This document shows positions 41,034-43,285 of a stretch of 64,000 bases of DNA, in pieces. Under the pieces are notes generated by a model. It saw nothing but the letters and a program-made list of their open reading frames with translations, was not told where the DNA came from and searched no databases. Where the stretch lies: NCBI GenBank assembly GCA_007693965.1, contig RECQ01000033.1, forward strand, positions 1 through 64,000, written 5' to 3'. The stretch comes from Phycisphaeraceae bacterium (GTDB taxonomy: Bacteria > Planctomycetota > Phycisphaerae > Phycisphaerales > UBA1924). The stretch's first letter is position 1. Each line of letters starts with the position of its first letter. A program made the translations under genes and the position numbers.

Positions 41034-41855
41034 TCAACTTGCTTTTACCGGCACGAGCAGGACCGATCGGCGGCTGCGCCGGCAGACCGCCTCGGCGACG
41101 CTGCCGAGCAGCAGATTCCGGATCAGCGAGCGCCCTCGCTTGCCCACGATCACAACATCGGCGTTCTCTCGCCGCGCCGCTTCCACGATTTCGATCGGCG
41201 CATCACCCTGATGCACGCGAACTTCCAGGTTCGTCACTCGCTCGGCGAGCGACGTCAGGCTCTGCTCCGCATCGCTCAATTCTGTCCTGCGACCATCTTC
41301 ATCGCTCCCGTCCACGACGTGAATCGCGATGGCGTGTTCGGCCTGAGCCGCGAGCTTCACGAAGCATTCCTCTGCCGGCCCTGCGGCGTCGGAGCCATCC
41401 GTCGCGAGCAGAATGCTGCGGAGTGCGACATCGCCATCCGACGCGTCGCCGTCGCCGATGAACTCCAGCCAGAGCGGTCGGTCGGTCAGCCGCGCCAGGT
41501 CCAGGGCGGTGCTGCCGAGGAAGAAGTCTCGCAGGGGGCGCGTGCCGCGATTGCCCGCCAGAATCAGATCGGCGCCCGCGTCCGTCGCGGCCTGCGCGAG
41601 CTCGTAGCCCGGCTCTCCTGTTCGAAGCTCGGTGTGAGCGTTGAAGCTCATCTCGCTCAATTCCTGCGCGATCTCTGAAAGGCGCGACTCGTAGTGCTCC
41701 CGGTGAGACTCGGCGGGCGCCAGGGGATAGCGCGTGCTCAGCACGTGAACCAGCGTGACTTCCGTGACGCCGAGCTCGCGCAGCGCGTGAAGACGAGCGA
41801 GCAGCGCGGGCCAAGCGGGGGAGAAATCAACGGCGACAAGTGCGTGTCTGAACAT
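41034..41855 (-). CDS. Universal stress protein, tandem UspA domains
   Basis: The 273-residue protein has two UspA domains. Each has an ATP-loop-like glycine motif: GNRGTRPLRDFFLGST (about 110-125) and GKRGRSLIRNLLLGSV (about 245-260). The first domain lacks part of the usual N-terminal nucleotide residues. It is the third gene of an operon with acr3 and the CC-motif protein (start 3 bases after the latter's stop), so it may respond to arsenic or oxidative stress. Confidence 0.9.
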   Translation of the reverse strand: MFRHALVAVDFSPAWPALLARLHALRELGVTEVTLVHVLSTRYPLAPAESHREHYESRLSEIAQELSEMSFNAHTELRTGEPGYELAQAATDAGADLILAGNRGTRPLRDFFLGSTALDLARLTDRPLWLEFIGDGDASDGDVALRSILLATDGSDAAGPAEECFVKLAAQAEHAIAIHVVDGSDEDGRRTELSDAEQSLTSLAERVTNLEVRVHQGDAPIEIVEAARRENADVVIVGKRGRSLIRNLLLGSVAEAVCRRSRRSVLLVPVKAS

Positions 41856-41858
41856 GGC

Positions 41859-42182
41859 TCAATTCCGTTCTGCGCGAAGTGTGTCGAGATCGACGCCCTC
41901 GACGACCAGCCGCTTCCAGCGAAGAAACCGGACCATGTCGATGGTGATCGCCTGGCTCTCGTCCATGCGGAGGTTCGGGGCGGCGTAGACGCTCACGCCG
42001 TCCACCATGTGGCGATGGTGGGATGTCGGGTCGTCCGGGGCGCCGATTTCCGCGACCGGAACCATTGCTCCCCCGCCGCAGCAGCCGGCGCGGCGCGACG
42101 GCCTCAGCGTGATGGCGCCGCCCTTTTCGAGCGCCCACTGACGGGCGTCGGGGGTCAGTCGTATGGCGGCGTTGGCGGTCAT
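41859..42182 (-). CDS. CC-motif protein associated with Acr3
   Basis: The 107-residue protein contains SRRAGCCGGGAMVPVAEIGA, a vicinal cysteine pair in a glycine-rich loop, and a small alpha/beta fold (LTPDARQWALEKGGAITLRP at the N-terminus, with a faint HesB-like look). Similar small proteins with a CC or Cys-Sec pair are encoded next to arsenite exporters. A thiol-based metalloid-binding role is plausible but not shown. Its ATG overlaps the acr3 stop (ATGA, 42179-42182), which indicates coupling. Confidence 0.75.
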   Translation of the reverse strand: MTANAAIRLTPDARQWALEKGGAITLRPSRRAGCCGGGAMVPVAEIGAPDDPTSHHRHMVDGVSVYAAPNLRMDESQAITIDMVRFLRWKRLVVEGVDLDTLRAERN

Positions 42183-43285
42183 GGCGCTTCCATCTCGTTC
42201 GCCGGCGCCGCCTCGGGCCCCGGGAAGGCGTGGCGGGTGCGGTTCGCGATGCGCACCAGCGCCAGCATGACCGGAACTTCGACAAGCACCCCCACCACCG
42301 TCGCCAGCGCTGCGCCGGATTGCAGACCAAAGAGGGCGATCGCCGCCGCCACCGCCAGCTCGAAGAAATTGCTCGCGCCGATCATCGCGCCGGGCGCCGC
42401 CACGTTGTGCGGCACGCGCCACGCCTTGGCCCAGCCGTAGGCGATGAAGAAGATCAGGAACGTCTGGATCGTGAGCGGGATCGCGATCAGGAGAATGTGC
42501 AGCGGGTTGGCCAGGATGACCTCGCCCTGGAACGCGAAGAGCAGCACCAGCGTCAGGATCAGCCCCGTCGGCGTGACCAGGCCGATGCGCTTCATGAAGA
42601 CGTTGTCGAACCACTCGATTCCCTTGCGGCGGATGACCAGCACGCGCGTGAGATACCCCGCCACGAGCGGGATCACGATGTAGAGGAAGACCGAGAGCGC
42701 GACCGTGTCCCACGGCACGGCGATGTCGGAGATGCCCAGCAGCAGCACGACGATGGGCGCGAAGGCGAAGAGCATGATGAGGTCGTTCACCGACACCTGC
42801 ACGAGTGTGTAGGCGGCGTCGCCGCGGGTGAGGTAGCTCCAGACGAAGACCATCGCGGTGCACGGCGCCGCCCCGAGCAGGATCGCCCCGGCCAGGTACT
42901 CGCGGCCGAGCTCCTCCGGGATGAACGGGCGAAAGACGACCAGCAGGAAGAACCACGCGATCGCGAACATCGTGAACGGCTTGATCAGCCAGTTCACCGT
43001 CGTCGTGATGATGAGGCCCTTGGGCTGCCTGCGGATGCCCAGGATCGAGGCGAAGTCGATCTGGACCATCATCGGGAAGATCATGGCCCAGATCAGGATG
43101 GCGACGGGGATCGAGACCTGCGCATACTCGAACCTCGACAGCGTCTCCGGCGCCTGGGGGAAGAACTGCCCCACGCCGATTCCCAGCAGGATCGCCAGCG
43201 CGACCCAGACCGTCAGGAATCGCTCGAACAGCCCCATTCCTTTACGCGGGTCGGGAGTGTCAGTCTTGGATTTGGTGTTCGTCAT
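42179..43285 (-). CDS. acr3: Arsenite efflux transporter Acr3
   Basis: Acr3 exports arsenite across the cytoplasmic membrane, driven by the proton gradient. The 368-residue protein has ten membrane helices. It shows the conserved cysteine in GAILLGAAPCTAMVFVWSYL (the essential arsenite-coordinating cysteine region), VSVNDLIMLFAFAPIV, and the glutamate-containing ASNFFELAVAAAIALFG. It starts at the ATG 43285 with a short hydrophilic N-terminus. No arsR or arsC is visible next to it; the regulatory gene may be elsewhere. Confidence 0.95.
   Translation of the reverse strand: MTNTKSKTDTPDPRKGMGLFERFLTVWVALAILLGIGVGQFFPQAPETLSRFEYAQVSIPVAILIWAMIFPMMVQIDFASILGIRRQPKGLIITTTVNWLIKPFTMFAIAWFFLLVVFRPFIPEELGREYLAGAILLGAAPCTAMVFVWSYLTRGDAAYTLVQVSVNDLIMLFAFAPIVVLLLGISDIAVPWDTVALSVFLYIVIPLVAGYLTRVLVIRRKGIEWFDNVFMKRIGLVTPTGLILTLVLLFAFQGEVILANPLHILLIAIPLTIQTFLIFFIAYGWAKAWRVPHNVAAPGAMIGASNFFELAVAAAIALFGLQSGAALATVVGVLVEVPVMLALVRIANRTRHAFPGPEAAPANEMEAP

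Follow-up and report, generated by a model that had tools for sequence, protein, structure and literature searches.

An acr3 operon with a CC/Se motif gene and usp in a Phycisphaeraceae bacterium: a possible arsenite-efflux module, likely of horizontal origin

In the handling of arsenite, ArsD takes the role of an arsenite metallochaperone by way of its vicinal cysteines and passes As(III) on to ArsA. Another family with a cysteine motif, NF041239 (Moorella), which is the "CC/Se motif family (seleno)protein" of NCBIfam, appears in a table of PMC13188914 with the motif CxxU and with predicted selenoproteins amongst its members, the entry itself giving no function. The combination of acr3 with uspA is already published: PMC6620896 describes ars clusters in which uspA stands together with acr3 and hypothetical genes, one from Alkalilimnicola ehrlichii and one from Thioalkalivibrio jannaschii. 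According to the same source, As(III) at 5 mM raises the expression of acr3, uspA and two hypothetical genes in the T. jannaschii cluster, and at 0.1 mM that of uspA alone. In the literature searched, no statement was found that links NF041239 to acr3 or that ascribes an IscA-like fold to this family.

The locus described here resembles these clusters in gene content but differs from both in that arsR and arsC are local there (PMC6620896, for the clusters it describes). It lies in the window, i.e. the whole stretch of 64,000 nucleotides of DNA that was analysed, and its genes follow one another head-to-tail on the minus strand in the order acr3, CC (the gene of the CC/Se motif protein) and usp:

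42179..43285, minus strand: acr3, arsenite efflux permease, 368 aa (TIGR00832 and PF01758)
41859..42182, minus strand: CC/Se motif protein, 107 aa, RAGCCGG motif with C34 and C35 (NF041239, predicted fold)
41034..41855, minus strand: two-domain universal stress protein (Usp), 273 aa (PF00582, solved relatives, alignment)
42179..42182, minus strand: ATGA overlap of acr3 stop and CC start (direct sequence reading)
41856..41858, minus strand: GCC spacer, the 3-base gap from the CC stop TGA to the usp ATG (direct sequence reading)
43286..43344, minus strand: 59 bases separating acr3 from the kinase/TPR gene that lies upstream of it (sequence, consensus scan)

The acr3-CC-usp operon in the window is real. 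The initial annotation had joined the three genes by an ATGA overlap and a 3-base gap, and direct reading of both junctions bears this out, the end of acr3 reading CCATGACC, with the ATGA overlapping the start of CC; as far as the sequence can tell, the three genes are probably read as a single transcript. By consensus scan, no promoter-like sites were found between positions 40900 and 43450, and the 59-base gap before acr3 showed neither a sigma-70-like promoter nor a terminator-like site.

The operon lies within a same-strand run (35406-47517 of the window, minus strand), where it is flanked by kinase/TPR genes at 43345-46749 and 38255-40975 and by a kinase gene at 35406-38285. The kinases of the run score under the cut-offs of Ser/Thr kinase models, and the two TPR kinases are similar when compared by eye. 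The run also contains an ECF sigma factor (46774-47517, above the cut-off of TIGR02999), and since a tRNA-Thr gene (47491-47563) overlaps the 5' end of this ORF as listed, the ORF probably begins further in. In the six relative acr3 loci examined besides that of genome G319 (L165), no match to the genes of this kinase/sigma run was found.

The Acr3 of the window lies above the curated cut-off of TIGR00832 (398.9 bits; cut-off 282.8) and is the sole PF01758 match in its own genome; as a member of the arsenite efflux family it is predicted to transport As(III). It contains GAAPCTAMVFVWS, which we take to be the permease cysteine segment, and had no match in the PDB by sequence. A tree built from 51 Acr3 rows groups the window with five species of its family in a single clade (support 100/99) and nests this clade inside gammaproteobacterial rows (forks 99/97 and 97/94), the nearer fork around the clade being weaker (94/82). 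This nesting suggests that the acr3 module was acquired horizontally, which presumes that the family of the window, assigned to Planctomycetota by the style of its genes, is itself non-gammaproteobacterial, and acquisition is the direction of transfer that we infer. With regard to base composition, no clear island was seen at the operon. The Acr3 of G319 (71% identity; Usp, no CC) falls outside the clade of the window in the tree, and here a second acquisition of acr3 is possible. A different form is found at L171 (G845): this Acr3 is about 45% identical, carries an insertion around position 124 of the window Acr3 and shares its cluster with arsR-, arsC- and arsM-like genes; two-piece Acr3 matches akin to this one occur in several genomes of the class sample (see below).

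The CC protein matches NF041239 above its curated cut-off (104.7 bits; cut-off 40), as do all 34 aligned relatives, so that 35 of the 35 members aligned here belong to the family. In contrast to the predicted selenoproteins that the table of PMC13188914 lists for NF041239, the members examined here carry Cys and none of them Sec. NF041239 is the sole match of the window protein, with neither ArsD (NF033727) nor any Pfam model (including PF01521) found at E up to 1. Invariant in the 35 members are, amongst others, R27, S29, R31, G33, C34, G36 and G37; the second cysteine is not, C35 being replaced by Ala (GCAGG) in L094. Nearly all other members have SPRH before the Cys pair, which is missing from the window protein, and no conserved cysteine beyond the pair was found in the 35 aligned members. 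The L094 gene with GCAGG for GCCGG (L094:1495-1788) stands in an acr3-CC-usp operon that is otherwise intact.

The AlphaFold2 model computed from the 35-member alignment, a confident one (pLDDT 86.2, pTM 0.77), had five Foldseek matches at E <= 0.001, namely SufA (two chains; 1.4e-4 to 2d2a), hi1723 and IscA (two entries), all of them moderate (TM 0.40-0.56), and VIA-align gave Z scores of 8.9 to IscA 1x0g and 8.6 to DsrR 2k4z. When the family profile was set against one of eleven true A-type carriers taken from these genomes, hhalign returned a probability of 92.5% over 64 columns and set the Cys pair at the cysteine loop of IscA, in a register that is unsure by one residue. By sequence, the best PDB match had an E value of 0.13, and PF01521 matches 5 of the 35 members with a best E of 0.013. 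The predicted fold and the place of the cysteine loop are thus those of IscA/SufA/HesB and DsrR, but the C-terminal CxC, invariant in the eleven true A-type carriers, is absent from all 35 aligned CC members, and the CC protein of the window differs further from IscA/SufA/HesB by its lack of a PF01521 match. The CC protein therefore reads, on the strength of the model, as an IscA-fold protein with an altered cysteine set. With ArsD it shares being a small vicinal-cysteine protein encoded beside an As(III) efflux system, yet it belongs to another family and another predicted fold, and ArsA, the partner of ArsD, is not in the operon of the window.

A conserved association of CC with acr3, which the initial annotation had proposed to look for by a survey of acr3 neighbourhoods, was indeed found, both in a scan of a genome collection and in a sample of genomes. 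The scan used as query the alignment of the window protein with one Halomonas relative and two peptide patterns drawn from these; the patterns favour members like these two proteins, and any that carry Sec or have a different loop would escape. It yielded 45 CC/Se loci from other organisms, mostly Halomonas and kin, and an Acr3 at 68-86% identity to that of the window was present in every one of them, on the same strand as CC in 44 and on the opposite strand in one. CC lies at most 153 bases from acr3 in 27 of the 45 loci, at exactly 3 bases in 16 of these; outside the 27, two loci have gaps of 325 bases (L086, with no ORF of 40 aa in between) and 344 bases (L088, where an ORF of 63 aa is possible), and in 15 loci the gap is 445-6871 bases. 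L045, where the acr3 frame has one in-frame TAG and the scripted gap was 832, was counted by hand as adjacent, the acr3 match ending at 1590 and CC starting at 1598.

The full order acr3-CC-usp recurs in 11 of the 45 loci (once cut by a contig end), including Wenzhouxiangella, Aquisalimonas, Ectothiorhodospiraceae, Halomonas and Salinibacter-type genomes, and in one more (L053) only a short usp remnant was matched after CC; such a recurrence is far beyond chance. Representative neighbours in the scan clusters pass the models of ArsH, glutaredoxin-type ArsC, ArsR/SmtB and an ArsE-like thioredoxin, and a phosphatase-type ArsC-like neighbour stays below the ArsC cut-offs. Upstream of acr3 in L086 and L089 there are ArsA and an ArsM-ArsD fusion, which argues against CC being a simple replacement of ArsD; amongst the scanned loci, ArsA occurs only in Salinibacter-type ones. 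In L068, L073, L080 and L082, CC is preceded by a grx-type arsC, a SigZ-like sigma factor, an ArsE-like thioredoxin and a SaoE/SO_0444-like permease (below cut-off), with acr3 about 3.1 kb upstream of CC. Relatives of CC were not found in viral contigs (queries P0001 and P0004, alignment A2); a single match was obtained in phages, at an E of 0.7, and a single record in plasmids, from Halomonas sp. PA16-9.

The second survey covered 369 genomes from the class (taken as Gammaproteobacteria) to which G392 belongs, and this centre of the sample had been picked for its CC. The cut-off of NF041239 was exceeded in five of these genomes, acr3 lying directly upstream of CC in all five, and in a sixth (G757) a fragment of CC stands at the edge of its contig; Usp follows CC in two of the five and in the sixth. 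With the window Acr3 as query, 141 genomes had any match and 13 a match of at least 70% identity, and CC was found in 5 of these 13 versus none of the 128 with other Acr3 matches (Fisher 3e-6, kinship ignored; 4 of 12 when the centre G392 is omitted). G757, which has no Acr3 match and whose contig ends in CC, was left out of this count. Of the 13 genomes, 8 have no intact CC, one of them holding a remnant after acr3 (L174), and the pump can thus manage without it. Within the reach of the neighbour search in this sample (about 1.5 kb), 3 of the 13 have Usp next to this Acr3, one of them lacking CC. Amongst 17 loci with an Acr3 at 55-62%, CC is absent throughout and Usp occurs once, at a distance.

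The window's own family was sampled with 150 genomes; seven of them have this Acr3 clade, the other 43 matching genomes having at most 54% identity. Four of the seven have CC (the window, G867, G804 and G844), followed by Usp in the window, in G844 and, truncated where the contig ends, in G867; G804 has only a usp stub, G319 has Usp without CC, and G778 and G779 have neither. A phylum sample of 392 genomes had shown CC in the window's own genome only, to which the family sample adds three species. CC thus belongs to one Acr3 clade, in which both CC and Usp are non-obligatory, and signs of decay are seen in the CC remnant of L174, a usp stub after CC (L167) and the short usp match of L053.

The Usp had been regarded as a fixed third member of the operon. 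It is recurrent, but fixation has to be rejected, as it stands directly after CC only in the 11 of 45 scan loci and beside acr3 or CC in 7 of 20 clade genomes. Of these 20 (13 from the class and 7 from the family sample), five have both CC and Usp, four only CC, two only Usp and nine neither, and the tie of CC with Usp inside the Acr3 clade is not significant (Fisher 0.16, n = 20 genomes). The protein itself scores 135.9 bits against PF00582 (cut-off 24), with two places over the cut-off that correspond to both domains, each having a GxxG-9x-GS loop that is presumably the ATP-binding motif. As the Usp has the two nucleotide-binding loops and an alignment of 14 rows shows no cysteine that is invariant, it is unlikely to bind arsenic; a role in stress signalling or energy sensing would be a guess.

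That the operon comes without arsR or arsC, as originally annotated, holds for its contig but not for the genome. On the operon's contig there is no match to HTH_5 or LMWPc, the seven HTH_5 and three LMWPc places of the genome all being on other contigs, and PF03960 (ArsC) has no match anywhere in the genome; the arsR local to the pump that marks a canonical ars operon is therefore absent. A genome devoid of arsR and arsC has to be rejected, since an arsR-arsC-arsM operon was found on contig C2 (L164, C2:24000-36000), with no acr3 inside. Just upstream of the C2 arsR there is a perfect inverted repeat, ATTTCG-N8-CGAAAT, as a putative operator. No copy of it was found near acr3 at up to 2 mismatches, and elsewhere in the window 4 matches were observed versus 1.65 expected; a shared ArsR operator was accordingly dropped as support for a connection of the two loci. 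In 12 acr3 loci chosen for comparison from same-family or same-order relatives, with Acr3 at 33-38% identity, the cluster includes arsR-like genes in 12, arsC-like genes in 11 and arsM-like genes in 9, and five have the order arsR-arsC-acr3-arsM. The simple reading is an import of the pump module that either took the place of the pump missing from the C2 ars operon or made up for its lack. G778, where an acr3 of the imported type stands in arsR-arsC order, fits a replacement by the imported pump.

Taken as a whole, the locus is best read as an arsenite-efflux module, likely acquired horizontally, that serves the C2 ars operon and in which CC assists Acr3 by binding As(III) and Usp is optional, a reading to which we give about even chances. 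Acr3 would export As(III), and the module would thereby provide a pump to the arsR-arsC-arsM operon on the other contig. The CC protein, with its predicted IscA/HesB fold, its Cys-Cys loop and no C-terminal CxC, would most likely bind As(III) through the cysteine loop, as suggested by the loop itself, by its being encoded a few bases from the pump and by its retention in ars regions when displaced. The As(III) so bound might then be passed to the pump or buffered on its behalf, a role like that of ArsD but in a different fold, with Usp as an optional ATP-binding stress partner. The binding of As(III) by CC, its hand-over to Acr3 and the joint work of the two loci are what we infer. The As(III) response published for the T. 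jannaschii cluster (PMC6620896) counts in favour of this reading. Against it count the Ala at C35 in L094 and the missing SPRH of the window protein, the clade genomes that do without an intact CC, the scan loci with CC far from acr3 or on the opposite strand, the ArsA and ArsM-ArsD fusion of L086 and L089, the CC fragment of G757 in a genome with no Acr3 match, the moderate level of the fold matches and the failure to find a common operator for the two ars loci. Amongst the possible roles of CC, the carrier to the pump is our first choice, ahead of a redox function and, in third place, of a passenger.

With a redox function, CC/Se would be an enzyme that acts in the arsenic response through its thiol (or selenol), resolving, for example, arsenic-thiol adducts or thiolated arsenic, in place of a carrier of As(III) to Acr3. 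The predicted selenoproteins and the CxxU motif in the NF041239 entry of PMC13188914 point in this direction. So do the reductases and flavoproteins in the clusters, and an invariant C34 beside a variable C35 fits one reactive cysteine. Against these stand the lack of any conserved cysteine apart from the pair and the predicted IscA-like fold, which to our knowledge is no thiol-oxidoreductase fold, and a redox enzyme is hence considered unlikely. The same fold, together with the profile matches to IscA and SufA, might instead indicate a relative of the A-type carriers that handles Fe-S clusters or sulfur and guards Fe-S metabolism under arsenite without contact to the pump. This is improbable in view of the missing CxC, the few and weak PF01521 matches, with none in the window protein, and a separate PF01521 protein over the cut-off in 8 of 8 genomes examined.

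It may also be that CC and Usp have no role in efflux and are passengers that a successful acr3 has carried along by descent and transfer. Patchy retention and the remnants of CC (L174) and Usp (L053, L167) would be expected of such passengers, as would scan matches that come mostly from Halomonas and kin and a CC-Usp tie that is not significant within the clade. The gene order has nevertheless been kept between Salinibacter-type genomes and gammaproteobacteria despite a divergence of Acr3 to about 70% identity, and CC remains in the ars region even when it is not beside acr3, so that we regard mere passengers as improbable.

In this organism the ars system is split across two loci, with a pump from a different Acr3 clade than that of most relatives. 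In a wider and more doubtful generalisation, CC/Se proteins might form a second class of arsenite metallochaperones, with an A-type carrier fold and a Cys-Cys (or Cys/Sec) loop, that serve the ATP-independent Acr3 as ArsD serves ArsA. If true, NF041239, so far annotated without a function, would gain one. The conserved gene order in distant bacterial groups links this unexplained (seleno)protein family to arsenite efflux, and the model provides it with a predicted fold.
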